Source: Verrucomicrobiota bacterium (GTDB taxonomy: Bacteria; Verrucomicrobiota; Verrucomicrobiia; Opitutales; UBA2995). From it: 36,749 nt of DNA. Under the pieces are notes generated by a model. That model searched no databases. It saw only the letters and a list, made by a program, of their open reading frames with translations, and was not told where the DNA came from. The translations under genes were made by a program, and so were the position numbers. How positions within the stretch are numbered: position 1 is the stretch's first letter; each line of letters starts with the position of its first letter. The stretch covers positions 1 through 36,749 of the forward strand of contig JAQBYJ010000055.1 in NCBI GenBank assembly GCA_027622555.1, read 5' to 3'. Positions 9,705-31,086 of the stretch are shown piece after piece.

Positions 9705-11111
9705 GTGATTTATTGCTATCGAGCTACGATTTTAAGAGTTGGTTTGCTGTTGGGATTTATAATCCTCTCGAGCCAAGTTGGAGTTTTTGGACAATCTGAA
9801 CCGAACCAAGTCCATCTGATGTCTTATCTCCGAGTCCAGGATTCCCAGGCGTTACTCGAGAGTTCCACTTCTATTCCAACGGTTTTTCAGGATAATTCCT
9901 TTTCAATTTATCTGTTAATTTCCGCCAGTCCACCCTTGGAGTGGATCTTGTGTACCAAGGACGTTGATTCAGCAGCCTGGTCGGATATTTCCAATGAGAG
10001 AAATTGGACTTTCACAGACATTTCTGGATATCGATTATTTTTTAGCGAATTCAGTAATTTGAAAGCGGAGGTTTCGGTCATTGAATTTGTGAAAACGCAC
10101 CTCGGCACCGACCCTTCCACAAGCATTTCCGGTGGATTACTACCTGGTTGGAACGCCGGGCTTAAACTACTTTATGATGATGAGAAGGGCAGGACCCAAT
10201 TGTTTGAGCACTTGTTTCCACAAGCAGCTGAACATTCTCTTGAATACGCTGATTATCTTCAATGGTTTGCCCAGGAACTTATGTCATTAAACTCTCTGGA
10301 TTTGAGTATCGATACCATTGGGAATAAAAATATGACCTCGCTAAGAATAGCTACCATTCCAGGGACACGATTGTATAGGTTAGTGAGTCGAAAAGGTGAA
10401 GGAAGCCAATCTGCTTTGGATTTTGTCCCAGCGAATGCCGGGAATCTTGTCTACGGATCTATTGATGGATTATTTGCGGGGAGTTATTTTAATTACCATT
10501 TCCAGGCCACAGATATGATTGAGCATGATCTGATTCAAAATGTGCGATCTGGGCTTAATCGTTTGGATGCCGGTGTAATTGATCGTTGGGATGGAAGTTG
10601 GGTAAAATGGTCTACCCAAGGTTCTGAGGCATCGTTGTTGATCTTGGGCGGAGATTTTCAATCTTCGGATTTAGGTGAATTGTTCGATATGTTTTCAGGA
10701 GTTGATCTTTTTGAAACTCCTATCTCTATCCAACTTGATGAGGAAAACACCGTGGTCGGGTTCTCTCGAATTCGAAGTCTGGATATTTATGATTCTGAAA
10801 ATGAGGATTTCGAAAACTCGGAACGAATGCACCGGTTTTTCTTTTGTGTGGCTAACGGATTCTTGGTTATATCAGATTCCGATAGCGAGCTCATTGATTT
10901 GGTTTTTTCTTTAAATAGTAGGAGCGTACTCAAGAATTCTGCTCGAAAACTGATCCCACCAGACCAGATATTTGCCATAAGTAGTTTTGAAAGTGGAGAA
11001 AAGGTCGGTTCAGTTGGTATGAATGACGGAAGAATCTTTTACGAAAAGACAGGAGGCTTGGAACAGACTAATTCCCTTATTGTCCGAATTATTAATATTT
11101 TGAACTTATAA
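9705..11111 (+). CDS. Secreted protein of unknown function
   Basis: 468 aa; no family recognised. The N-terminus has a Sec-type signal peptide: a hydrophobic core at about 9-25 (ILRVGLLLGFIILSSQV) and a likely cleavage site near GVFG-Q at about 29-30. The mature part is a mixed alpha/beta protein with no Cys-rich, repeat or TM regions and no enzyme motif I can name; its tone recalls DUF3352-like proteins but the match is weak. The start is GTG at 9705, with AAGG directly before it, a poor ribosome site; it is chosen because it preserves the signal peptide. It is followed, after a hairpin, by the PEGA gene. Confidence 0.7.
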   Translation: MIYCYRATILRVGLLLGFIILSSQVGVFGQSEPNQVHLMSYLRVQDSQALLESSTSIPTVFQDNSFSIYLLISASPPLEWILCTKDVDSAAWSDISNERNWTFTDISGYRLFFSEFSNLKAEVSVIEFVKTHLGTDPSTSISGGLLPGWNAGLKLLYDDEKGRTQLFEHLFPQAAEHSLEYADYLQWFAQELMSLNSLDLSIDTIGNKNMTSLRIATIPGTRLYRLVSRKGEGSQSALDFVPANAGNLVYGSIDGLFAGSYFNYHFQATDMIEHDLIQNVRSGLNRLDAGVIDRWDGSWVKWSTQGSEASLLILGGDFQSSDLGELFDMFSGVDLFETPISIQLDEENTVVGFSRIRSLDIYDSENEDFENSERMHRFFFCVANGFLVISDSDSELIDLVFSLNSRSVLKNSARKLIPPDQIFAISSFESGEKVGSVGMNDGRIFYEKTGGLEQTNSLIVRIINILNL

Positions 11112-15173: not shown

Positions 15174-17879
15174 ATGTTTTCTAAGTCTTCCAGGCTCAGT
15201 GCAAACAACGATATAGATCGAACCAAAGAAGAATTGGTTCGGTTGCATCGACGCTCGCATTTACTTGAGCAAAGGCTTAGGAACAACCAACAGGTATTTG
15301 TGGATTTTGAATCAATAGCTAAAGCAGTCAGCCATTTAATAAAGGCTCATAAGTCAGATCAAGCCGTTCTGGAGTCACTCGCTCTTGTCGGTGAAGGTTC
15401 GGGCTTGGATAGGATCTATCTGCTTAAAAATGAAACGGGTGATGAGCAAGGCGGGGTCATAGATCAAGTCTATACCTGGGTAAGCGAATCGGATGATATT
15501 CAAGTTCCCGAATTTCATTCACTTCCCTTTGAAGCTTTTTTCCCTTCCTGGTTAAACAAATGGAAAGCGGGTGAACCGCTTTGGGGGAACCTCGAAGACG
15601 TCCCCGATATTGAGCACTTAACTCTAGCCAAACAGGGAGTTGTTTCCTTTTTATGGATACCCGTTTTTTATGAAAATGTATGGTGGGGTGTTTTGGGATT
15701 TGATCAGATATCCACTACTCGAGTCTGGCATCCTAAGGAAATTTCTGGATATGAACTTTTGGCTACAAGCATCGTTGAATTTATGCGCCGCCAAAAGTTG
15801 GAGTCTGATCTTCTGCTTTTTCAGGAACGACATGAGAAGGCATCTCACGCCGAGCAGTTTGGTGTATGGGATTGGAACATAGAAAAGAACGAGCTCTTCC
15901 TGGATAGTTCTATAAAGCGTATGGCGGGCCGAAAAGCCAATGAGATCATTGAGGATTTGAATAGCTGGGAGGCATTGTTTATTCTTAGAGACCATGGAAA
16001 CTGGGTTGAAGCCTTGAATCTTAGAATTGCCGCTCAAGAAAAAGATTTTGAGCTGGAGCATCATTTGCGACACGCTGATGGTCGGTTGATAGAAGTTTAC
16101 TCACGCGGGATGATTGTTTACTCTGATTCAGGTAAACCGGTTCGCGTATTAGGAACGACAACTGATATCACTCACAGAAAGTCTATCCAAAACGATTTAA
16201 CCAAGGCGCGTGACTTAGCCGAAGAAGGAAGCCGATCGAAATCTGAGTTTATGGCCAAGATGAGCCACGAGATCCGTACTCCATTAAATGGAGTCATCGG
16301 ATTTGCCACTCTTTTGAAACACACAGAATTAAGTTCGGAACAATTGGATTACCTTACCAACTTGGAAACAAGTGGCCGCCTTTTACTTTCCATGGTTAAT
16401 AACATTCTTGATTTCTCCAAAATAGAGGCTGGCAAACTGGACCTTGAACAAAAGCCCTTCGACATCCGGGAAAGTGTAAAATCGATCCTCGGTGTATTTG
16501 GCGATGCAGTGATTAAGAAAGGTATCAAGATTGAATTTGTTGCCGAGGATGAGGTACCCGAAAGTGTCATTACAGATCCTCTTCGTATCCAACAAGTGAT
16601 TCTCAATTTGGTAGGAAACGCTGTCAAATTTACGGAAGAGGGTAGTATATTGGTTCATGCTTCATGGGTAGATGCGGAGGACGGAAAAGGACGTTTACAT
16701 TTTTCAGTCAAAGATTCGGGCATCGGTATTGAATCCGATCGTTTGGCTGCGATTTTTGAGCCATTTACTCAGGCAGATTCATCGATGACTCGTCGTTTTG
16801 GTGGATCAGGCTTGGGGCTTTCCATTTGCCAAAATATATTGCAGATAATGGGCTCAAAATTGGTGGTAACCAGTGATTTTGGAAGTGGCAGTGAGTTTTC
16901 TTTTGAGATTCTTGTTAAGGAATCTCCGGTTGAGGTTGTTGAGGAATTGAAGAAAGTTAGGGAGTCTGTATTGGAATCCACTTCGAAAACGATTTCACGA
17001 TCCAAAATGGATCTTCGAGCAAAAGCCAAGATTCTCCTCGCGGAAGACAATGCATTAAATCAACAGGTAATTTCAAAATTACTCAGTCGCTTGGGTTACA
17101 ACGCGGTTTTAGTTGAAAACGGCCAGGAGGCAATTGATGCACTCAAGCGTTGGAAGTTTGATTTGGTATTCATGGATCTCATGATGCCGGTTCTTGATGG
17201 TATTTCAGCTACTAAAGAAATACGTGAAACCATTCCACCGGCCAAACAGCCCATCATTGTTGCGCTGACGGCGAACTCTTCAGAAGATGACATCAACAAT
17301 TGTCTGGCGATTGGTATGAATGATTTTATAACCAAACCGGTGGAGCTTGATGTTCTCGAGAAAACATTGAATGAGCATTTGGATTTAAGAAGGTACGAGG
17401 TTGAATCTGCGGTGGTTGAATCAGAGATCAATACCATCGAATTTTCTGAGATCGAACTTGAGGAGAGCTTTGATGAGGATGCTGACGAATTGGTATTTGA
17501 ACATTTTGACCCAGCCTACATGCGCAAATTAATGGGAAGTAATTCAGAGCCGGAGGTACAGGATGAATTCTCTATTGATGCCATCGATATCTTTTTAGAA
17601 ACGATGCCGGAATTGGTTCTGTCTTTGAGTACTTTCGCCAGGGAAGAGAAGTGGAAAGAGTTTGAGCGTGAAGCGCACAATTTAAAAGGTACGGCTAAGA
17701 TGGTAGGCGCCCTGATTTTGGGAAACTTTGCATTGCAACTTGAGCTGTGGGTTCAGGAAGGACATGTTGGAAGTCGAAAAGACGAAATAGAACAAATAGC
17801 GGATGAGTTCGCAGCTTTGTCCAAAGAATTGGATCTATACCGCGAGTCACTAAAGAAAAAGCAGCGTCAAATCTCTTAG
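15174..17879 (+). CDS. Hybrid sensor histidine kinase with GAF, PAS, REC and HPt domains
   Basis: 901 aa, no TM helices, so a cytoplasmic sensor. Order: short coiled coil (10-45), GAF (about 45-205), PAS with a PAC-like end (about 215-345, HLRHADGRLIEV...TDITHRK), HisKA with phospho-acceptor H365 in MAKMSHEIRTPLNG, HATPase (NLVGNAVKFTEEG; DSGIGIESDRL; GGSGLGLSI), receiver with D668 in FMDLMMPVLDG, an acidic linker (about 735-800), and HPt with H835 in EAHNLKGTAKM. All phosphorelay residues are kept, so an internal His-Asp-His relay is likely. No response regulator or output gene adjoins it; the final target is encoded elsewhere. The signal is unknown. Confidence 0.95.
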   Translation: MFSKSSRLSANNDIDRTKEELVRLHRRSHLLEQRLRNNQQVFVDFESIAKAVSHLIKAHKSDQAVLESLALVGEGSGLDRIYLLKNETGDEQGGVIDQVYTWVSESDDIQVPEFHSLPFEAFFPSWLNKWKAGEPLWGNLEDVPDIEHLTLAKQGVVSFLWIPVFYENVWWGVLGFDQISTTRVWHPKEISGYELLATSIVEFMRRQKLESDLLLFQERHEKASHAEQFGVWDWNIEKNELFLDSSIKRMAGRKANEIIEDLNSWEALFILRDHGNWVEALNLRIAAQEKDFELEHHLRHADGRLIEVYSRGMIVYSDSGKPVRVLGTTTDITHRKSIQNDLTKARDLAEEGSRSKSEFMAKMSHEIRTPLNGVIGFATLLKHTELSSEQLDYLTNLETSGRLLLSMVNNILDFSKIEAGKLDLEQKPFDIRESVKSILGVFGDAVIKKGIKIEFVAEDEVPESVITDPLRIQQVILNLVGNAVKFTEEGSILVHASWVDAEDGKGRLHFSVKDSGIGIESDRLAAIFEPFTQADSSMTRRFGGSGLGLSICQNILQIMGSKLVVTSDFGSGSEFSFEILVKESPVEVVEELKKVRESVLESTSKTISRSKMDLRAKAKILLAEDNALNQQVISKLLSRLGYNAVLVENGQEAIDALKRWKFDLVFMDLMMPVLDGISATKEIRETIPPAKQPIIVALTANSSEDDINNCLAIGMNDFITKPVELDVLEKTLNEHLDLRRYEVESAVVESEINTIEFSEIELEESFDEDADELVFEHFDPAYMRKLMGSNSEPEVQDEFSIDAIDIFLETMPELVLSLSTFAREEKWKEFEREAHNLKGTAKMVGALILGNFALQLELWVQEGHVGSRKDEIEQIADEFAALSKELDLYRESLKKKQRQIS

Positions 17880-17991: not shown

Positions 17992-18372
17992 ATGGAAGAC
18001 AGTTCTAAATTTCGAAACACTGGAATCAAACGAATCATTTTGGCCGGAAAGTACTCGATGGATGGCCTTTGGTTTGCCTTCAGGAACGAAGCAGCGTTTC
18101 GGCAGGAAGCCCTTCTATCAATGGTTTTGATTCCTCTGGCGATATGGCTTCAACCTGGGTTCACCCCTTTCTGTCTTTTGGTCGGTAGTATTATGTTGGT
18201 GATGATTGTGGAATTGCTAAACACCGGCATTGAAACGGCAATCGATTACCAGTCTATGGATATCCATCCCCTGGCTAAGTTGGCCAAAGATCTTGGAAGT
18301 GCGGCTGTTTTTTTGAGTTTGCTAAATCTTGCAATTGTGTGGGGATTTTATTTGTGGGATCGCTTTGCATGA
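17992..18372 (+). CDS. dgkA: Diacylglycerol kinase, DgkA family
   Basis: 126 aa, the usual size. A small inner-membrane kinase with three TM helices that phosphorylates diacylglycerol or undecaprenol. Conserved elements: RNEAAFRQE (E33 and E39) and VELLNTGIETAID (E74, N77, E81), which bind Mg-ATP and lipid. In the family, the substrate preference (diacylglycerol versus undecaprenol) cannot be read from sequence with certainty. The next gene, a degenerate P-type ATPase, starts 19 bp downstream on the same strand. Confidence 0.93.
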   Translation: MEDSSKFRNTGIKRIILAGKYSMDGLWFAFRNEAAFRQEALLSMVLIPLAIWLQPGFTPFCLLVGSIMLVMIVELLNTGIETAIDYQSMDIHPLAKLAKDLGSAAVFLSLLNLAIVWGFYLWDRFA

Positions 18373-18391: not shown

Positions 18392-20443
18392 ATGTTAAAA
18401 ACAACTTCTTCGACCAAACTAATTTCATGGGTGGACTATTCTTTATTCCATTCCAGCGACTTTAATTGGATCAAAGGATGTGTTGCCATCGCTTTAGTCA
18501 TTCACGGCTTCGCATTGCGCGTGTTGGTTGAGTTTGCACCACCTAGCGACCTCCTTTACGTACTCGTGCATTGCGGGCTGGCAGTCGGAGCTCTCGTCTC
18601 GATAATCTTGCTGACTCCGTCGCTTTTCGTCGATACGATTCAAGCTTGGAAGGATAGGATTATTAGAGTCGAAACAGGATTATTGATCGGACTCTTGATT
18701 CTTTTCGCCGTATCGGTTGTTTCCTCTTTTCGTCTCAGTGAAGCGACCTATTACGAGGTCATTCCACTGGCCTTGGCTATCTACACATTAAGTCGTTATT
18801 GGTTGTCGCGAAAAAAGCGGATAATCGATGCGGCGTTGCCATCACTTTTTAGCCGTGTCGAACGATGCAACCGGGTAGAACCAAATGGTTCAGTTACCAG
18901 GATTTCATTAATTGATCTAAAAGTTGGAGAGGAAATCAAAATAACAACCGATCAAGTAGTCCCTGTTGACGGAGTGGTTATTACAGGCAACGGCTATGTC
19001 TCAGAAGCTTCATTGAATGGGTCCAATTTTCCAAAGCTCAAGCAAGCCGGTGATCCGATATACTCTGGAAGTGTTTCTGAGGATGGCGTGTTTACGATTA
19101 AATGTCTATCACCCTACATACCTAGAAAGATACAAGCTGTGATGAATCCATTGCTTGATCCTGTGAAATCCCACCCAATGTTTCGGTCGAGAAATTTGTT
19201 GATTGGTTTATTGGTTGTCGCAATGGCTGTTGCCGGAACAACAGTTGCGATTATAGTGATGAGTATCGCAGAAGCCTTGATCCTAACTTCTACGATTCTT
19301 ATCATGGGTACTTCCTTAACCTGGGTGGCGGGTATTCCTGTACATCATTGGACTGGATTGGTTCATCTTGGGAAACGGGGTCTCTACGGGAAAGGCCACG
19401 AAATGGTTGGAGATTTAGCTACTGTTAATGTCGGATATTTTGGAAAGACCGGAGTGATTTCCCGAGAAGAACTATCCATGGAGCGTTTTTTTGTCATGCC
19501 TGCATTTCAGGACCGGGAAGATTGGATCATGTCGATTATTTATCAGATTAGTCGCATGGTCCGTCACCCTTTGGTAAACTCACTTTCCAGTGTGGAAGCT
19601 TTAATCAAAGATCAACCTATTCGGGAAGACCTTCGTTATGAAATTGTTCCTGGAATGGGCGTCAAAGTATCATTAACCGACGGACTTGGTCATCAAATTG
19701 TGATGCGTATTGGTGAGTCGGAATTCGTCCTCGGTCCAGGCGGAGAGTCTCGTGTTTCTGCAATACTCGAGGAGCACGACCTTAAATTAGGACAACGAAT
19801 TTGGGTAAGCCTGGATAACCGACTTTGTGCGATTGCTACGCTCAAGGAATCGTGGACCGTTGCGCCTCAACCATTCTTTTCTCAACTTGAATTACTGGGA
19901 ATAAAACCTGGTGTTCTAACGGGCGATAGCGCGTTTATTAACTCACGACTGGATGGCTTGTCCTTGGTTAAAGGCCTCAGTTCCATGCAAAAGCAGGAGC
20001 ACGTTATAAAGGCTGCAGAAGAGGGGGGGAGGATTTTGTATGTTGGTGATGGATTGAACGATTTCCGGGCCATGTCCAGCTCACTCGTTTCTATCGCCAT
20101 GCGTCATTCGCCGGATCCTGTTCTTGCCTCGGCATCGGCAGTGTTAAAATCCGGCAGTTTAGCGACTGTGCTTTTTGCCATCCCTTATTGCAGGAAGTTA
20201 GTTCGGATCTCCATAAGAAATCTTTGGGTGCTTCCCAGTGCATTTACGGTTGCTAGCGTTATGGCCATCGCAGGTTGGATAACTCCCATCTCTGCTTCAC
20301 TTTATGTGATGGGCTGTTTTTCTTTGGTCTGGCTTCAATCCTTCCTTCTGGGAAGTTCTTCGCTTTCCAGAGTCGTAGAGAAAACGCGGTACCGAAAGAC
20401 GAGCAGGCAGGAGGCTCAAGGGCGTTACGTGCGGAATCGTTAG
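18392..20443 (+). CDS. Catalytically degenerate P1B-type ATPase homologue
   Basis: 683 aa, heavy-metal P-type ATPase layout without an N-terminal metal-binding domain: four TM segments (about 25-135), actuator domain (150-250), two TMs (268-310), P/N domains, two C-terminal TMs. Retained: HP in the N-domain (VRHPLVNSL), TGD (T510-G511-D512) and GDGLND (552-557). Lost: the phosphorylated Asp of DKTGT is Gly (FGKTGVIS, G351), the actuator TGE is N209-G210-S211, and the CPC metal motif is absent (MGTSLTWVAG). Ion pumping by phosphoenzyme is therefore not expected. The frame is intact over 2 kb with no stop codons, so it is not a fresh pseudogene. A regulatory or scaffolding role is inference. 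Likely co-transcribed with dgkA. Confidence 0.85.
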   Translation: MLKTTSSTKLISWVDYSLFHSSDFNWIKGCVAIALVIHGFALRVLVEFAPPSDLLYVLVHCGLAVGALVSIILLTPSLFVDTIQAWKDRIIRVETGLLIGLLILFAVSVVSSFRLSEATYYEVIPLALAIYTLSRYWLSRKKRIIDAALPSLFSRVERCNRVEPNGSVTRISLIDLKVGEEIKITTDQVVPVDGVVITGNGYVSEASLNGSNFPKLKQAGDPIYSGSVSEDGVFTIKCLSPYIPRKIQAVMNPLLDPVKSHPMFRSRNLLIGLLVVAMAVAGTTVAIIVMSIAEALILTSTILIMGTSLTWVAGIPVHHWTGLVHLGKRGLYGKGHEMVGDLATVNVGYFGKTGVISREELSMERFFVMPAFQDREDWIMSIIYQISRMVRHPLVNSLSSVEALIKDQPIREDLRYEIVPGMGVKVSLTDGLGHQIVMRIGESEFVLGPGGESRVSAILEEHDLKLGQRIWVSLDNRLCAIATLKESWTVAPQPFFSQLELLGIKPGVLTGDSAFINSRLDGLSLVKGLSSMQKQEHVIKAAEEGGRILYVGDGLNDFRAMSSSLVSIAMRHSPDPVLASASAVLKSGSLATVLFAIPYCRKLVRISIRNLWVLPSAFTVASVMAIAGWITPISASLYVMGCFSLVWLQSFLLGSSSLSRVVEKTRYRKTSRQEAQGRYVRNR

Positions 20444-23198: not shown

Positions 23199-24971
23199 CT
23201 AGAAGAAGAACAACAAAGCTAACACGATGACAGATAGGCAGGCGGTGATGCCAATTGGAAGAGCACCTTTTTCGATGTTCAACCTAACTGTATTTTTGAG
23301 TGCTTCCTGTTGTTCGGCGTTGTTGCCTTTGATAGTCCAATAAGGAGTGAGCAGACATATGAAAATTCTGGCTGGGCCTTCGGTGGCAAATCGACAAACA
23401 CTGTTCACTATTCCTCCCATAAACACTTTGTGTACTGCAGCGTTTACTCCATTGAGACTGCGATCACAAATTGTGTAGATCCATTTTCCGCCTTTGCGGT
23501 AGAACCAGTCGCTATCGATATTGATCGCCCGCATCTCCGCCGGGTAGAAGCCTCCTAACATAAGCAGGGCAAATGCGAGGCAGGCGAACAGGAGCAGCAA
23601 GCATTGTCCTATAACGTGGGCAAGGGTGAAAACTTCGTAGTGTGCGTCGAAAGGCAGTATTCTATAAAGGGTCTGTTCAGGGAAAAATCCAATTGCAAGA
23701 CATCCGACTGCGGCGAGACCCATAGCGATGCGCATGTTCATCGGGGCCTCTTCTACCTTTAGTCCGGAATCGTGGGAGAAGAATGCGAAGAAGGGAATCT
23801 TGATTCCGGCATGCTCGACCACGCCTGCTGATGCAAAAAGCAGGACCAGCCATACCCAGACGTAATGCTCACCGGCGGCCTCAGCCATGATCATTGATTT
23901 AGTGGCGAATCCACTAAAGAGAGGAACTGCGGAAATGGATGCCGCGCCAATGATGCAACAGATCGCCGTAAAAGGCATACTTTTGAAAAGTCCACCCAGC
24001 TCTGTACATTTTGATTTGCCGGTCCGGTATAAAACGGCGCCGACAGACATAAATAAGAGACCTTTAAATAAAATATCGGCGTAAACGTGGGCGGCTGATC
24101 CGTTCATCGAAAGATAGGTTCCGATCCCTATTCCGACCACCATAAATCCCACTTGGTTGATCATACTGTAGGCCAATACTCGGCGCAGGTCGTTTTCAAT
24201 TACCGCATAGAAAATGGGGAAAGCGGCCATTGCAGTTCCGATCCAGATCAGAACCTCTTCTCCTGGAAAACCTCTCATCAAGGCATACACCGCAGCCTTG
24301 GTGGTAAAGGTAGCCATGAAGACAATCCCGCCCACGGTCGATTCGGGATAGGTGTCCGTTATCCACGCGTGGATGATTGGCCAACCGCAATTTACTCCGA
24401 ATCCCAAAAAGATCAGGAAGCTCGCAGTATTGTCTAAACCAATTTCATTGAACGCGATGTTTGTGCTGCCCGTCTCCTTAATATACAATACAATACCAGC
24501 AAAGAGGATCAACCCGCCGACCACGTGAACGAGTAAGTACCGCATGGCTGCTCCAACGGATTTTGCAGTGCGCCGAACAAGCAAGAGAAAAGCCGCGCCA
24601 ACAGTGAGTAGTTCCCAAAAGATAAAAAAGGTAATCAGGTCGCCGGCCATGACGACTCCGACACCACTTCCGGCATACAGCAGGCCGGAAAAATGCTCCA
24701 TGGTACCCTTTTCATGGCTATTGTAAATGACCGCAATAAAGGTAGCGATTATGAAGATGTTTAGAAACATCAGGCTCATCGGATCCGCGCGAACCAGAGC
24801 CAGGTCAAAATCGAGGATCGAGTAAGTCCAGTAAATGCCTTCCTCCAGCTTCAGGTAACTGAAGAATGCCAATACCGGTAGCAATAGCATATACCCGGTC
24901 CTTAAACGGCCTTTGAAGAGCGGAATTAATAGCGCACCGATAAGGAAAATGAACTGCGGAGGTAGTATCAT
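23199..24971 (-). CDS. Third proton-translocating antiporter-type subunit (MrpD/NuoL-like)
   Basis: 590 aa, about 14-16 TM segments. The proton_antipo_M core is at about 100-390. Seen: the TM5 acidic site FFIFWELLTVG, the TM7-8 region GWPIIHAWITDTYPES, and TTKAAVYALMRGFPG with the TM8 lysine. The usual TM7 lysine position reads Asn (GFGVNCGWP), which differs from the two other antiporter subunits of this operon. A long C-terminal extension (about 470-590) ends in a hydrophobic helix. Its ATG begins 1 bp after the stop of the 84-aa gene. It most likely is a membrane subunit of the same Mrp-type complex. Confidence 0.88.
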   Translation of the reverse strand: MILPPQFIFLIGALLIPLFKGRLRTGYMLLLPVLAFFSYLKLEEGIYWTYSILDFDLALVRADPMSLMFLNIFIIATFIAVIYNSHEKGTMEHFSGLLYAGSGVGVVMAGDLITFFIFWELLTVGAAFLLLVRRTAKSVGAAMRYLLVHVVGGLILFAGIVLYIKETGSTNIAFNEIGLDNTASFLIFLGFGVNCGWPIIHAWITDTYPESTVGGIVFMATFTTKAAVYALMRGFPGEEVLIWIGTAMAAFPIFYAVIENDLRRVLAYSMINQVGFMVVGIGIGTYLSMNGSAAHVYADILFKGLLFMSVGAVLYRTGKSKCTELGGLFKSMPFTAICCIIGAASISAVPLFSGFATKSMIMAEAAGEHYVWVWLVLLFASAGVVEHAGIKIPFFAFFSHDSGLKVEEAPMNMRIAMGLAAVGCLAIGFFPEQTLYRILPFDAHYEVFTLAHVIGQCLLLLFACLAFALLMLGGFYPAEMRAINIDSDWFYRKGGKWIYTICDRSLNGVNAAVHKVFMGGIVNSVCRFATEGPARIFICLLTPYWTIKGNNAEQQEALKNTVRLNIEKGALPIGITACLSVIVLALLFFF

Positions 24972-24972
24972 A

Positions 24973-25227
24973 TTAATCGTAGTGGTCCTCTTTGCGTTTC
25001 ACGAGGGGACGCAGGATGAATTTGGATGCGAATACCAGGAGCGCGAAAGTTACGAAACTATAAACCCCGTAAAAGCCAGGCCAGTTTTCCCATTCAAAAA
25101 CGGCATGCTTATCGAAATTTTCTGATAAAAACAAAAAGTCCAAAAGGAAGACGACCACGCAAGCTACGATGAGTGAGCGGACAATGATCTTGGCCATTTT
25201 GGATGGGGGATGATGTGAATCACTCAT
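24973..25227 (-). CDS. Small membrane protein, two TM helices, in the antiporter operon
   Basis: 84 aa. Predicted helices at about 14-33 (IVRSLIVACVVVFLLDFLFL) and 53-73 (GVYSFVTFALLVFASKFIL), with a charged tail. The N-terminus MSDSHHPPSK has a small His pair. No family recognised with certainty. It is directly followed by the third antiporter subunit (1 bp) and preceded by the 48-aa gene (30 bp). Position and size suggest an accessory subunit of the antiporter. Confidence 0.8.
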   Translation of the reverse strand: MSDSHHPPSKMAKIIVRSLIVACVVVFLLDFLFLSENFDKHAVFEWENWPGFYGVYSFVTFALLVFASKFILRPLVKRKEDHYD

Positions 25228-25257
25228 GGGTCAATCTACGTTCGTGTTAAGCGCGAT

Positions 25258-25404
25258 TCAGTGGTGAAGATTGGCTGCTCCACCATCTGGAGAGGACAGC
25301 ATGATGAATATCAAGTAGATCGTCAGTAAGCTGAATACTACTATGAATGCTTTTTTAAAACCGGGCCAGGCTGCGTGTGATAATTCTTGAATTTCTTCTT
25401 TCAT
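25258..25404 (-). CDS. Very small membrane protein (48 aa) in the antiporter operon
   Basis: 48 aa: a charged N-terminus (MKEEIQELSHAAWPGFKKAF), one TM helix (about 20-37, FIVVFSLLTIYLIFIML), and a short tail ending in His-His. ATG at 25404, stop TGA at 25258. It lies 12 bp after the second antiporter subunit and 30 bp before the 84-aa gene, in the same direction and operon. It is easy to miss by length cut-off. The amphipathic start and tight spacing argue it is real; no homologue is recognised. Confidence 0.7.
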   Translation of the reverse strand: MKEEIQELSHAAWPGFKKAFIVVFSLLTIYLIFIMLSSPDGGAANLHH

Positions 25405-25416
25405 AACAAGTGCGGT

Positions 25417-26907
25417 TTAAAAGTTTAGAAACTCTTGCGCTGCGGCGTCGGCGAGCGAGAAAAATGGTTCAGGATAGACGAACAACACCATGGTCGCCAA
25501 TGCGGTTAGGGACAAAGCTATTACGGCACATGGGTGAGCTTCATCCACTTTGTCTTCGAACAGAGAATCGTCCGCTTTGCAGAAGAATGCCCTAAACGAG
25601 ATAGGGAAAAAGTAGGCCGCGTTGAGCAGTGAGCTTACGAGTAGAACGACCAACATAATATACTGTCCATCGGCTACCGTTCCTTGCAGCAGATAAAACT
25701 TACTCCAGAAGCCTCCGGCCAGCGGGATACCCACCACACTTAACGAACCGATGAAGAATGCCGCCATCGTTATCGGCATTCGTTTGCCGATTCCGACCAT
25801 CTGGCTGATGTATTTTTTGCCCGTTGCTTCGAAAATGGCTCCTGCACAGAAGAACAAAGTGATTTTTCCGAAAGCGTGCATGGCGATGTGCATCATACTT
25901 CCGGTCGCTCCGTTCCCATTGAGCAATGCCATGCCCAGAATGATGTAGGAAAGTTGACCAATCGTGGAAAATGCCAGGCGGCGTTTCAGGTTGTCCTGGG
26001 ATAGTGCGATCAGGGAGGAGGTGACGACTGTGAAGGCAGCGATCCAGGTGATGATTACCCCGAGATCCAGATCCGCCATGAAATCGAGTCCGAAAACTCC
26101 TGAGTAAACGCGAATGATACAAAAGACGCCCACCTTCACGACGGCAACGGCATGCAAGAGCGCACTCACCGGGGTAGGGGCCACCATCGCTCCAGGTAGC
26201 CAGGAGTGGAATGGCATGAGGCCTGCCTTTGCGAATCCAAAGGTTAGCAGAAGCACAAGAACAAGTCCTTCAGTTGCTCCTATGTGATCTCTAAGGAATC
26301 CGCCTCCGATGAAATCCATACCGCCGTCTGTTTTCAGGAAAATAAAAATCAGAGCGGGCAACACAAAACCAATCGATGTCGTCAGTAAATAGGTCAGATA
26401 AGTGCGACCGCCGGTCCTGGCTTCCTTATCCTGGTGGTGCGTTACCAGGGGATAGGTTGCGAGGGAAAGCATTTCGTAGAACAGATACAGTGTAAACAGG
26501 TTGGCCGAAAATGCTACGCCCAAGGTTGCGGATAGAGATACCGCAAAGAATGAGTAGAACCGGGTTTGTGAATGTTCCTTCAGCCCTCGCATGTAACCGA
26601 TCGCGTACAAGGAGGTGATTATCCAAAGCGAGGATGCCACCAGGGCAAAGAGCATCCCGAATTGATCTACCCGGAATGCAATCGAAAGCCGTGGCAGGAT
26701 TTGCCAAATCGTAAACTCAATCTTCGTTCCGGCAAGTATTGCCGGTAGCATCGAAACCACCAGGCCAAACTTAATAAACCCGGCGGCGAACGTGGCTCCT
26801 TCTCTAAGGTTTGGCTTTTTGCCGAGCAAAACAATAGGTATCACCGCCAGCAGGGAAACAAGGCATACCAGGACGGGTTTAAAACTGATGATGGTGTCGG
26901 GAGTCAT
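25417..26907 (-). CDS. Second antiporter-type subunit (MrpD/NuoN/NuoM-like)
   Basis: 496 aa, about 14 TM segments. Core motifs are intact: TM5 Glu in LYLFYEMLSLATYP, TM7 Lys in FGFAKAGLMPFHSWLPGAM, APTPVSALLHAVAVVKVGVF with the TM8 Lys, and a broken helix in the TM12 region with AGGFWSK. It should form a proton channel in the Mrp complex. Starts 4 bp after the stop of the first MrpD. Unlike a full-size MrpA (about 800 aa), it lacks a C-terminal MbhD/MbhE part, which is encoded separately upstream in this operon. Confidence 0.9.
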   Translation of the reverse strand: MTPDTIISFKPVLVCLVSLLAVIPIVLLGKKPNLREGATFAAGFIKFGLVVSMLPAILAGTKIEFTIWQILPRLSIAFRVDQFGMLFALVASSLWIITSLYAIGYMRGLKEHSQTRFYSFFAVSLSATLGVAFSANLFTLYLFYEMLSLATYPLVTHHQDKEARTGGRTYLTYLLTTSIGFVLPALIFIFLKTDGGMDFIGGGFLRDHIGATEGLVLVLLLTFGFAKAGLMPFHSWLPGAMVAPTPVSALLHAVAVVKVGVFCIIRVYSGVFGLDFMADLDLGVIITWIAAFTVVTSSLIALSQDNLKRRLAFSTIGQLSYIILGMALLNGNGATGSMMHIAMHAFGKITLFFCAGAIFEATGKKYISQMVGIGKRMPITMAAFFIGSLSVVGIPLAGGFWSKFYLLQGTVADGQYIMLVVLLVSSLLNAAYFFPISFRAFFCKADDSLFEDKVDEAHPCAVIALSLTALATMVLFVYPEPFFSLADAAAQEFLNF

Positions 26908-26911
26908 ACTG

Positions 26912-28426
26912 TCAAATTCCAGCTACCAGGTTAAATTGAGAAACAAAGTCCTGAATGATCGAAACAATTTCCTTATTGTAGATACCGATACTTAAAATGA
27001 TAGCCGCGGTGGCCAACAAGGGCAGGACCTGGGTCATTGAGCCTTCCGAGATTTTAGCGTGATGGTCTCCATGATGGGCGTCGTGTCCTTCGGCGGGTTT
27101 AACGCCAAAGTGAGCGACCTCAATAATCCGGAAGAAAAGAACCGCATTGACCAAACTGGAAAAAAGCAGAGCCACCACATACTCCCAGTTTCCGGAGTTG
27201 ATGCCGCCTTGAATCAAATACCATTTACTGAAAAAACCTGCAGTCGGAGGTATGCCTATCAGTGAAAAAGCACCTACCAGGAATCCGATCATGGTTAGGG
27301 GCATCTTCTTAAACAATCCATCCACCGCATTGATATCTCTCCGACCCGTCTTGGTGTAAATAATCCCTGCGAACAGGAATACGCACAGAGTCATGAATGC
27401 ATCGCTGATGATGTGAAAGATCGAACCGATCATACCGGTTTCATCCACGAGCCAAACACCGCCAACCATATAACCGACTTCGGCAATGATGAGAAATGTG
27501 AGCATCTTCCGAAGGTCTTTCTGAGCGAGTGCGCCGATAGAACCCGCAAGGATGGCTATGACTGCCAGCCAAACCACGACGTTGTCCCAATTGAGAACTT
27601 CAAAAGCGTAGTTTGGACCAAACACAGTCAGGACCATGCGGATCATCACGTAGATCATTACCTTGGTCACGAGCGGACCCATGATAGCACTGCTGGTCGT
27701 TGGTGCAAAAGAGTAGGCATTCGGTAACCATGCATGAAGGGGGAAAAATGCCATTTTAATCCACACGCCTACGGTGATGAGTATGAAAGCCACAAGAATG
27801 GTGGAGGAACCTTCCAGGTGGTTCACCACCAACTGCTCGTTGATGTCCACCATATTCAGGGACCCTGTTTTTATATACAGGTAGCCAACGCCCAATAAAT
27901 AGAACGACGCCCCAATCGTTCCCATGATTAAGTATTTATAAGCTGCTAAAGTGGCCCGGATATTGCCCATCGCCAACAGGGCATAGCTCGTCAAAGCGGA
28001 GATTTCCAACAATACGTAGAGATTGAACGCATCTCCTGTGATCACCATACCCAATAGCCCCGCTATGAGTAAAAGAAATAGCGTATAATACTGGGAAACC
28101 TTGTCCTTGTTTTCCGTGAGCACTGCGTCTCTGGAATAGATCGCTGCTAACAAGGCAACAATCGTTACGGTTACCGCGACCAGGGCATTCAGTCCGTCAA
28201 TGCGAAATTCAATGCCGAACGGTGGTTCCCAACCACCTAATTTATAACGAATGGTCCCTGATTCCAAGACACGAACCAAGGTCGATAGACTTGCCCAAAC
28301 CGAACTCGCCAGACTCAACAAGACGAGCGGCCAGCAAAGTGCCTTGATTCTAATCCCGACCAGCGCCACCACTATGGCGGTTAGAAAAGGAAACAGGAGA
28401 ATTAAAACAGGTGCTTGCTCAGTCAT
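26912..28426 (-). CDS. mrpD: Antiporter subunit D (MrpD/MnhD)
   Basis: 504 aa, about 14 TM segments. TM5 Glu in LYVLLEISALTSYA, TM7 Lys in GVWIKMAFFPLHAWLPNAY, FAPTTSSAIMGPLVTKVMIYV with the TM8 Lys, and PPTAGFFSKWYL later. It is the most canonical of the three antiporter-type subunits. Near the C-terminus, the loop before the last helix has a His-rich stretch (EGHDAHHGDHHAK). Overlaps mrpC by 4 bp, as in classical mrpC-mrpD pairs. Confidence 0.92.
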   Translation of the reverse strand: MTEQAPVLILLFPFLTAIVVALVGIRIKALCWPLVLLSLASSVWASLSTLVRVLESGTIRYKLGGWEPPFGIEFRIDGLNALVAVTVTIVALLAAIYSRDAVLTENKDKVSQYYTLFLLLIAGLLGMVITGDAFNLYVLLEISALTSYALLAMGNIRATLAAYKYLIMGTIGASFYLLGVGYLYIKTGSLNMVDINEQLVVNHLEGSSTILVAFILITVGVWIKMAFFPLHAWLPNAYSFAPTTSSAIMGPLVTKVMIYVMIRMVLTVFGPNYAFEVLNWDNVVVWLAVIAILAGSIGALAQKDLRKMLTFLIIAEVGYMVGGVWLVDETGMIGSIFHIISDAFMTLCVFLFAGIIYTKTGRRDINAVDGLFKKMPLTMIGFLVGAFSLIGIPPTAGFFSKWYLIQGGINSGNWEYVVALLFSSLVNAVLFFRIIEVAHFGVKPAEGHDAHHGDHHAKISEGSMTQVLPLLATAAIILSIGIYNKEIVSIIQDFVSQFNLVAGI

Positions 28427-28953
28427 TTTGCGGACTTGATCTGTTCAAGGATTTCGCTCTCTTCAAGTGAGCCGAATTCTCCATATAGTTTCTGAGTGAT
28501 GGCTAGTCCCACACCAAGAGTAGCTACTCCGACCACAATGGCGGTAAGCATGAGTACATGAACCAGGGGATTAATAAATTGGTCGGGGTCGATTTCCAGA
28601 CTGCCATGGTCGTCGTGACTGACGGCATGGTCACTGTGATCTGCTGCTGCGTGAATTTCTTCGGTAACTTCGCGAACTGCGTGTTCAGCGTCGTGGTGAG
28701 TATCCGTACCCTCCCCGGAGACCTCTTCATGGTGAGCTCCATGGACTTGATCGTGATACAAAATGGGGATGGTTGCGTGCTCCTTGTAGCCAATCGAGAC
28801 GTAAAACAAAATGATCGCTGTTTGAAAAATCGACATCCCGATCAGTTTTTTGATCAAGTTGTTTTTTGAGACCATGGCATACAAACCGATCATCATAATA
28901 ATGACGTATATCCAATAATTGAAACTGTCCGCAATTGCTTCTAGAAATTCCAT
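28423..28953 (-). CDS. mrpC: Antiporter subunit C (MrpC/NuoK-like) with histidine-rich insert
   Basis: 176 aa against about 113 aa for usual MrpC. The NuoK-like core is there: three TM helices at about 14-28, 37-55 and 128-150 (LIKKLIGMSIFQTAIILF; then DPDQFINPLVHVLMLTAIVVGVAT). Residues 59-116 form an extra hydrophilic stretch between TM2 and TM3 with 13 histidines and many acidic residues, e.g. HGAHHEEV, THHDAEH, HSDHAVSHDDHG. The insert lies where other MrpC proteins have a short loop. It could bind Zn, Ni, Cu or protons; that is inference. It starts 3 bp after mrpB. Confidence 0.9.
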   Translation of the reverse strand: MEFLEAIADSFNYWIYVIIMMIGLYAMVSKNNLIKKLIGMSIFQTAIILFYVSIGYKEHATIPILYHDQVHGAHHEEVSGEGTDTHHDAEHAVREVTEEIHAAADHSDHAVSHDDHGSLEIDPDQFINPLVHVLMLTAIVVGVATLGVGLAITQKLYGEFGSLEESEILEQIKSAK

Positions 28954-28956
28954 GGA

Positions 28957-29712
28957 TTAGATGCCCTCCTTCATTGTACCATTTGAGGACAAACTTGAGT
29001 AGATCGAAAACATGATCGCGGTTACCGTGAATGCCACGCCGATTTCTACACCGAGCATGCTATGGGAACGAGCATCTTCAACGCTGCCGGGGATTATTTT
29101 TGATAGAATCCCGTAATCGAGAAAGTTGGCTCCGAAGAGCAAAGCTACGACTCCGAATCCTGCGTATATAAAAATACCGATACCGGCCAGGTTGAGTATC
29201 CGATTCTCTGGCACCCATTCCTGAGCTGCTTGCAGGTTTCGTGCTAATGCCAATAATATAAAACTAGCCCCGAAGATGACTCCTCCTTGGAATCCGCCAC
29301 CTGGACTGTGGTGACCATGGGCGACCACGTAGAGCGCAAAAAGTTGAATGATAGGAAGTAACAGACGAGTGGTCGTTGCAATGATCAGGTCTGGCTTCTT
29401 GTCGGTTAGTTTTGGTTCTTTGTGCTGGTTCTGGCTGCTGGAACCGAATACACGCAGTATCCCGATAATAGCTATACCTGCGGTGAATATCACCACGGTT
29501 TCAAACAGGGTGTCGTAGCCCCGGTAGTCCGCCAGGACGGCCGTTACCATATTAGGAACTGTTGTTTCGGGAAAAGTTTGAGTGATGTAATGTTGAGACA
29601 AACGGTAGCTACTGGCTGGCGAATTTACATCTCCCCAATCAGGAAAATCTTTTTCCGCCTGTAAGAGTAATAGTCCCGTAATTATTACGGTAATGAATCC
29701 GAGTACTTTCAA
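28957..29712 (-). CDS. mrpB: MbhE-MrpB fusion subunit
   Basis: 251 aa. Residues 1-90 match the extreme C-terminal (MbhE-like) part of MrpA: DFPDWGDVNSPASSYRLSQHY, VPNMVTAVLADYRGYDTLFE. Residues 115-245 are MrpB (MnhB): LLLPIIQLFALYVVAHGHHSPGGGFQGGVIFGAS. About six TM helices. In classical mrp operons the first part belongs to the large mrpA product; here it is joined to MrpB. It starts with a 4-bp overlap (ATGA) after the DUF4040 gene. Confidence 0.92.
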   Translation of the reverse strand: MKVLGFITVIITGLLLLQAEKDFPDWGDVNSPASSYRLSQHYITQTFPETTVPNMVTAVLADYRGYDTLFETVVIFTAGIAIIGILRVFGSSSQNQHKEPKLTDKKPDLIIATTTRLLLPIIQLFALYVVAHGHHSPGGGFQGGVIFGASFILLALARNLQAAQEWVPENRILNLAGIGIFIYAGFGVVALLFGANFLDYGILSKIIPGSVEDARSHSMLGVEIGVAFTVTAIMFSIYSSLSSNGTMKEGI

Positions 29713-29954
29713 TCTGATGACCTCCTTGATGTGCGCAGCACGGTTGAAATCATAAATACAGCGCTAACTCCCGCACCGACGGCCGCCTCGGTAAAGGCGA
29801 CATCAACCGCACCCATACCAGCCCAAAGCAGACACATGAGAAAACTGTAAACTCCGAAAATCATCGCCGCACTGAGCAAGTCCTTCACCTGGAGTGCAAT
29901 GATCGAAGTGATCACCAGGAAAATCAGAATTATCAGGTCGAAAATCCAGATCAT
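29709..29954 (-). CDS. DUF4040/MbhD-like subunit (MrpA C-terminal piece)
   Basis: 81 aa from ATG 29954 (three TM helices). A longer frame starts at 29984, but the ATG at 29954 overlaps the mrpG stop as ATGA and follows a strong GGAGGAGGGG ribosome site, so it is preferred. The conserved VKDLLSAAMIFGVYSFLMCLLWAGMGAVDVAFTEAAVGAG matches the DUF4040 block found in the C-terminal half of MrpA and in MbhD of membrane-bound hydrogenases, including the VAFTEAAVG acidic site. Confidence 0.92.
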   Translation of the reverse strand: MIWIFDLIILIFLVITSIIALQVKDLLSAAMIFGVYSFLMCLLWAGMGAVDVAFTEAAVGAGVSAVFMISTVLRTSRRSSD

Positions 29955-30286
29955 TTCCCCTCCTCCTTTTTGCCGCGAGTCCACATTTTTATTCCTTCTT
30001 CAAACCCGGCTTTGATAAGAGCGTGAGTGCTGGTCGGTCCTGTCGACATGATAAACATAGCAATAAATATCATTTTACCAACGACCAGGAAATTTGCCAG
30101 GGAAGGAACATGCAGCTGATACAGCGCCATTCCTGCTAGGATGAGAAGCATGGAACAGGTGTCTCCTTTTCCAGCGGCATGCATACGTGTATAAAAGTCC
30201 GGGAATCTCAATATACCCACTGCGCCACCGATGAAAAATACCAGCCCGGTGCAAATAATAAAAATGCTTATGATGTTAATAATCAA
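29951..30286 (-). CDS. mrpG: Antiporter subunit G (MrpG/MnhG)
   Basis: 111 aa, three TM helices. The family signature GAVGILRFPDFYTRMHAAGKGDTCSMLLILAG is complete. The first helix begins at the N-terminus (IINIISIFIICTGLVFFIGG) and the tail is Lys/Glu-rich. The gene overlaps mrpF by 4 bp and the DUF4040 gene by 4 bp. The stop TGA at 29951-29953 and the next ATG share bases. Confidence 0.95.
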   Translation of the reverse strand: MIINIISIFIICTGLVFFIGGAVGILRFPDFYTRMHAAGKGDTCSMLLILAGMALYQLHVPSLANFLVVGKMIFIAMFIMSTGPTSTHALIKAGFEEGIKMWTRGKKEEGK

Positions 30287-30588
30287 TCTCCAGACTCCTC
30301 CGCTTTCATATCGGCAAACGACTTGGTTGGGTTTACCCGATCAAAGAAACGAGCCGCTGCGATCGATCCAATAAAGTTCAGAAGGGCATAGGTCAGGGCA
30401 AAATCAACAAACATTTCCACCCGTTGGAACAACATGCCGATGATGATTAGTAGGACCGTCGTTTTGGTCCCGATTACGTTGACGGCAACTATCCGGTCAA
30501 TCGCAGTGGGTCCTATGATCATTCGGTAAATGATCGGAACCATGAGAGCGAGGATGGCTATGCCGACCCATACGAAAAAATTCTCCAT
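30283..30588 (-). CDS. mrpF: Antiporter subunit F (MrpF/MnhF)
   Basis: 101 aa, three TM helices. The conserved IIGPTAIDRIVAVNVIGTK and FALTYALLNFIGSIAAARFF blocks identify MrpF. It starts 3 bp after mrpE ends and overlaps mrpG by 4 bp. In the family it is needed for stability of the membrane complex and Na+/H+ exchange; a specific catalytic role is not known. Confidence 0.95.
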   Translation of the reverse strand: MENFFVWVGIAILALMVPIIYRMIIGPTAIDRIVAVNVIGTKTTVLLIIIGMLFQRVEMFVDFALTYALLNFIGSIAAARFFDRVNPTKSFADMKAEESGD

Positions 30589-30591
30589 GAC

Positions 30592-31086
30592 CTAACTGTC
30601 CCCTCCTTCAAATACTTTAGAGATTTTTTGCTCCATCGTCTCACTCTCAACACCCGACTTGGTATGTCGCGAGATGGAGTGGATGAGTAGTTCATCTCCT
30701 TCGATGTCTATGGTGATGGTACCGGGAGTGAGTGTGATTGAATTGGCCAGTATGTATTTACCATAGTCGGTCTTAAGTTTTGTCTTAACACGGACCAGGG
30801 AAGGATCGAGGTCTTTGATCTCACCGGGTGTTAGCGCCAGCCTCAATATGTGGACATTGGAGAGAATAATCTCCCACAACAGCCAGAGTAAATAACCGGG
30901 TATTCTCGCTGTTTCAGCCAGGCGGTTGGCAAAACCTTTAGAACGGTTTGTAAAGTAAAAGCTCGAGGAGATAAGGGTTATAAACAGGCAGGAGAGAACA
31001 CCCAAGGTGATGTGGAAATAGTCAAATTGTCCGGATAATACAACCCAGCCGCCGAATAAGATCAGAAAAATGACAACGCGGTACAT
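30592..31086 (-). CDS. mrpE: Antiporter subunit E (MrpE/MnhE), first gene of the operon
   Basis: 164 aa. Two or three TM helices at the N-terminus (VVIFLILFGGWVVLSGQFDYFHITLGVLS...), then a soluble cytoplasmic part with TLTPGTITIDIEGDELLIHSISR, the family hallmark. It is the first gene of the minus-strand run that continues to lipA. The 266 bp upstream, shared with the divergent GYF_2 gene, should hold its promoter, but I could not identify one with confidence. No good Shine-Dalgarno is seen. Confidence 0.94.
   Translation of the reverse strand: MYRVVIFLILFGGWVVLSGQFDYFHITLGVLSCLFITLISSSFYFTNRSKGFANRLAETARIPGYLLWLLWEIILSNVHILRLALTPGEIKDLDPSLVRVKTKLKTDYGKYILANSITLTPGTITIDIEGDELLIHSISRHTKSGVESETMEQKISKVFEGGDS

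Follow-up and report, generated by a model that had tools for sequence, protein, structure and literature searches.

Pseudoenzymes are well known among kinases. A comparable case in the P-type ATPases is the guanylyl cyclase beta of Plasmodium, in which a degenerate P4-ATPase domain that has lost most of its signature residues lies inside a signaling protein (PMC6592433). The CbrA transceptor joins a transporter domain to a histidine kinase and couples a transporter fold to kinase signaling (PMC13022988). In the literature searched, most of it outside the subscription journals, we found no description of a stand-alone bacterial pseudo-P-type ATPase.

Here we describe such a protein, encoded at 18392-20443 (+ strand) of the window, the whole 36,749-nucleotide stretch of DNA that was analyzed. 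It resembles the Plasmodium domain in having a P-type fold stripped of most signature residues (PMC6592433) but is a stand-alone bacterial P1B protein rather than a eukaryotic P4 domain fused to a cyclase. CbrA may work alike without belonging to the same group, since it is a single polypeptide with an unrelated transporter fold (PMC13022988), whereas the pump-like protein and the kinase described here are products of separate genes whose coupling is putative. The closest systems by homology are the P1B-1 Cu+-ATPases, represented by the CopA structures 3j08 and 7r0g, and a short Cu+-ATPase of the Opitutales; these have the same fold and a similar length, and the profile match to them is full length. 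The window protein differs from both in lacking the DKTGT aspartate, the TGE glutamate, and the CPC, YN, and SS motifs, in lying at another locus, and in an inverted pattern of conservation.

A P1B-type fold without catalytic residues

The gene is a single open reading frame of 683 codons without interruption. Its product matches the E1-E2 ATPase domain of Pfam (PF00122, E 1.7e-14), and its top NCBIfam match is the heavy-metal P1B family TIGR01525 (E 8.9e-51, residues 103-651), under the curated cut-off. A profile built from the five orthologues of the genus matches the A. fulgidus CopA structures with an E value of 4e-36 over positions 74-652. By homology, the protein is a member of the P-type ATPase superfamily, as judged from similarity over the A, P, and N domains and the membrane helices and from the TGD and GDGxND motifs.

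Alignment with intact pumps places Gly351 (19442-19444) at the position of the phosphorylated aspartate, and DKTGT is replaced by FGKTGV. All five orthologues carry this glycine within FGKTGV and have no replacement aspartate at the site, while the aspartate is conserved among the 52 intact sequences compared. In the A domain, TGE is replaced by N209-G210-S211 (19016-19024); the site reads NGS or KGT among the orthologues, the glutamate having become serine or threonine in five of five. T307-S308-L309 (19310-19318) occupies the M4 metal site where intact relatives have CPC, a motif absent from all five orthologues, which by this measure fall outside the P1B-1 pumps. Also missing are the metal ligands that P1B-1 pumps are expected to have in their last two membrane helices: YN is gone, and the SS position reads C, S, G, or A in the alignment.

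Other motifs are kept in all five orthologues, namely, the HP of the N domain (codons 392-393, 19565-19570), TGD (codons 510-512, 19919-19927), and GDGxND, here GDGLND (codons 552-557, 20045-20062), which binds Mg2+ in active P-type pumps. The conserved lysine is present in the window protein as K534, and N-domain glycines G421 and G441 occur in five of five orthologues and G423 in four, one orthologue having lost one glycine. The majority of ATP- and Mg-binding residues are retained. The original prediction, made from the sequence of this stretch, had listed Gly351, N209-G210-S211, and the missing CPC as losses and GDGxND, TGD, and HP as retained, and the alignment bears out this description exactly. 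Its suggestion of nucleotide sensing is plausible, given the retention of HP, most N-domain glycines, TGD, the conserved lysine, and GDGxND; P-type ATPases that cannot be phosphorylated are known to bind ATP. An AlphaFold2 model computed from a four-row alignment reached a pLDDT of 38 and was useless.

Selection and inverted constraint

The pseudo-ATPase is encoded at the same locus in five of the six genomes of one uncultured Opitutales genus, the window's genome included. The four further orthologues are 55 to 62% identical to the window protein and share its catalytic losses; because the same losses are common to all five, they exceed what chance would produce. For the closest pair of orthologues (G064 and G032), dN/dS is 0.051 at a dS of 0.55; in the remaining pairs synonymous sites are saturated, and protein identity is still 53 to 62%. 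By segment, the ratio for the G064-G032 pair is 0 in P1, where there is no amino acid change, and 0.024 in P2; N has 0.06, and M3-M4 has the highest value, 0.10. With catalytic residues lost and the protein under strong purifying selection, mainly on its cytosolic domains, this is a pseudoenzyme by sequence criteria.

It had been anticipated that a dN/dS near 1, or close homologues with intact DKTGT and TGE motifs, would instead mark the gene as decaying or misassembled. None of the close homologues is intact, and the dN/dS of the closest pair is far from 1. Loss of the gene in one sister species (G048) would fit a pseudogene or an assembly error, but the frame is open in five separate assemblies (cut by a contig end in one), including the single-contig genome G032, and the substitutions are identical throughout the orthologues. 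The dN/dS value and the orthologues already refute this explanation, to which we give almost no weight.

Conservation within the protein has shifted. Conservation among the 52 intact pumps reaches 93% or more in 45 alignment columns, of which all five pseudo-ATPase orthologues keep 25: 6 of 7 in the A domain (where the glutamate is the sole loss), 8 of 10 in P2, 4 of 6 in N, and 2 of 9 in M3-M4. In intact families of the same clade, identity is highest in M3-M4 (0.61 to 0.77) and lowest in N (0.30 to 0.43), whereas in the pseudo-ATPase clade it is highest in A (0.71) and N (0.65) and lowest in M3-M4 (0.42) and M5-M6 (0.43). The ratio of N to M3-M4 identity is 1.54 [1.25-1.97] in the pseudo-ATPase clade; four intact families and CopA range from 0.49 to 0.56, and the P1B-4 type has 0.89. 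Such an inversion is what would be expected if ion movement had been abandoned and the cytosolic domains were used for binding; judged by these identities, the transport path is released from constraint. Together with the shared substitutions and the low dN/dS, it supports the earlier proposal of a pseudo-ATPase kept for another job.

The same data bear on whether the protein might still be an active pump with altered chemistry, phosphorylated on another acidic residue or moving another substrate. The full-length fold and the several P-domain motifs kept are consistent with such a pump, but the residues for phosphorylation and dephosphorylation are both lost, no aspartate replaces the first at its site, and conservation is now lowest along the membrane path. 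We therefore consider residual pumping very improbable.

Intact relatives and a second degenerate ATPase

Full-length homologues with 24 to 30% identity are found in many families across the Opitutales, and the full-length relatives checked (41 core sequences) all have intact DKTGT, TGE, and CPC motifs. The nearest intact family is the short Cu+-ATPase, which in several other Opitutales families adjoins ActA-ActF of alternative complex III, with neighbors identified by domain as ActB (Fe-S), ActC (NrfD), and ActA (cytochrome). Genes beside some intact relatives were considered as oxidase subunits and rejected, as they encode MazG and YgjP-like proteins. Because a tree that includes the second pseudo-ATPase of the genus (see below) joins long branches, we did not trust it for placement and rebuilt the tree without that protein. 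In the rebuilt tree the pseudo-ATPase clade (support, 100) has a long stem of 2.67 and is nested within that of the Opitutales Cu-ATPases (support, 100).

ActB is present in all eight genomes of the bacterium's family. No intact member of the short Cu-ATPase subfamily was found in these eight genomes, nor any trace of one in the complex III loci examined in the family. In the window's genome (G000), contig C22 (L118) carries ActA-F and COX1 but lacks the Cu-ATPase that other families have there; shortly beyond ActA the contig breaks off. Of the family's other P-type ATPases, those included in the tree are either CopA-like or P1B-4-like. The intact paralogue that the original prediction had suggested looking for was thus not found within the subfamily, the intact ATPases of this genome belonging to the two others.

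Another possible role for the pseudo-ATPase is that of a regulatory partner of an intact ATPase in the same cell, of the P1B-4 or CopA type, for example through hetero-oligomers or competition. All five genomes with the pseudo-ATPase do encode a P1B-4-type ATPase; however, so does G007, which has no pseudo-ATPase, and not all of the five have a CopA-like pump. Neither type is linked to the locus, and P-type pumps mostly act as monomers. A partnership of this kind seems distinctly unlikely.

A second degenerate P-type ATPase, of 655 amino acids, is encoded in the same genome as the window (G000 contig C32, 23471-25435, - strand; L039:7472-9436), approximately 48 nt upstream of a penicillin-amidase-like gene. 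It has LEKTG for DKTGT and GYGRND for GDGxND and lacks both HP and CPC; by its motifs it is more degenerate than the window's pseudo-ATPase. Its counterparts in G089 and G099 are 73 to 74% identical, the gene is broken into two frames in G064, and no counterpart was found in either G032 or G048. Its best matches beyond the genus are to the short Cu-ATPase family.

Locus, candidate partners, and proposed role

Upstream of the pseudo-ATPase gene, on the same strand, lie dgkA, encoding a diacylglycerol kinase of 126 amino acids (17992-18372, +) and ending 19 nt before it, and, upstream of dgkA, a gene for a soluble hybrid histidine kinase of 901 amino acids with GAF-PAS-HisKA-HATPase-REC-Hpt architecture (15174-17879, +) and intact catalytic motifs. 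Within the genus the locus is syntenic, in the order DUF1015, kinase, dgkA, pseudo-ATPase, AMP nucleosidase, lipA, lipB, and Mrp/MBH-type antiporter genes. The antiporter cluster (23199-31086, -), beside lipB and lipA, is syntenic in the family as well. Elsewhere in the window, a 468-aa protein with no Pfam match is encoded at 9705-11111 (+), upstream of a PEGA-domain protein; G032 and G048 have homologues of it in the corresponding position.

Proximity to dgkA had led to the suggestion of a lipid-related role, and the pseudo-ATPase could be a membrane regulator that binds either DgkA or lipid and adjusts how diacylglycerol is recycled, with both genes in a single transcription unit. DgkA looks catalytically intact by sequence, and dgkA ends 17 to 19 nt upstream of the pseudo-ATPase gene in the four genomes in which the junction is assembled. 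Because the block is syntenic, however, the genomes of the genus do not count as independent evidence of linkage, and an order-wide search found no dgkA adjoining this ATPase family outside this genus. In the sixth member of the genus, G048, dgkA was kept while the pseudo-ATPase was lost. We therefore consider the link to DgkA weak and a role in diacylglycerol recycling unlikely.

G048 is informative about the kinase as well. Its dgkA is intact, and the kinase and pseudo-ATPase genes persist only as remnants on its two sides (L110, 8706-9005 and 9438-9778). The kinase remnants are unconvincing by nucleotide alignment alone but convincing by protein search (tblastn E values of 4.5e-8 and 2.3e-4). 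The 5' remnant of the pseudo-ATPase gene aligns with a score of 27.5, against a maximum of 14 for shuffled sequences. Its 3' remnant is weaker, with a P value of <0.0005 against the window gene only and weak or absent similarity to the other orthologues; the C-terminal match has an E value of 2.7e-4. The remnants imply that the ancestor carried both the kinase and the pseudo-ATPase gene and that in G048 these two disappeared and dgkA stayed.

Close orthologues of the kinase occur in all of the genomes that encode the pseudo-ATPase (five of five) and in these alone. Both genes are absent from three of three others, G048 and, in the sister genus, G007 and G078, all three with dgkA in the same setting. 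This shared presence and absence, and the decay of both genes in a sister species that retains dgkA, single out the kinase as the best candidate partner and make a tie of the pseudo-ATPase to the kinase more probable than one to DgkA. The co-loss may also reflect general streamlining, since it is a single evolutionary event in a reduced genome of 3.1 Mb in which, at 94% completeness, no PF00122 P-type ATPase was found anywhere, unlike in its seven family members. That no known response regulator for the kinase was found here also counts against a kinase partnership.

We favor, tentatively and as a whole at slightly below an even chance, a model in which the pseudo-ATPase has been repurposed as a membrane sensor or scaffold, probably one that binds nucleotide, and works with the hybrid kinase. 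Sequence and selection show that an ancestral short Cu+-transporting P1B-ATPase lost the phosphorylated aspartate, the dephosphorylating glutamate, and the whole intramembrane metal site and was afterward fixed as a nontransporting membrane protein in one Opitutales genus. The fold, with membrane helices and A, P, and N domains, has most likely been kept. Nucleotide would be bound through HP, the N-domain glycines, TGD, the lysine, and GDGxND without being hydrolyzed, and the cytosolic domains would be positioned either by this binding or by a partner docking onto the A and N domains. A partner protein, for which the soluble hybrid histidine kinase upstream of dgkA is the best candidate, would read out this position. 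In this the module would resemble other sensors derived from transporters, which have given up transport and kept conformational signaling.

A more specific reading is possible but rather doubtful. In it, a copper pump associated with an oxidase gave rise to a stand-alone bacterial pseudo-P-type ATPase that would bind but not hydrolyze nucleotide and would be the membrane coreceptor of the soluble hybrid kinase, with a second pseudo-ATPase, independent or sister, in the genus. The protein is a natural experiment on what remains possible for a P-type fold once phosphorylation is gone. It carries a measurable signature of repurposing, in that constraint has moved off the ion path and onto the cytosolic domains, and it makes it possible to test clearly whether a dead pump can sense nucleotide.
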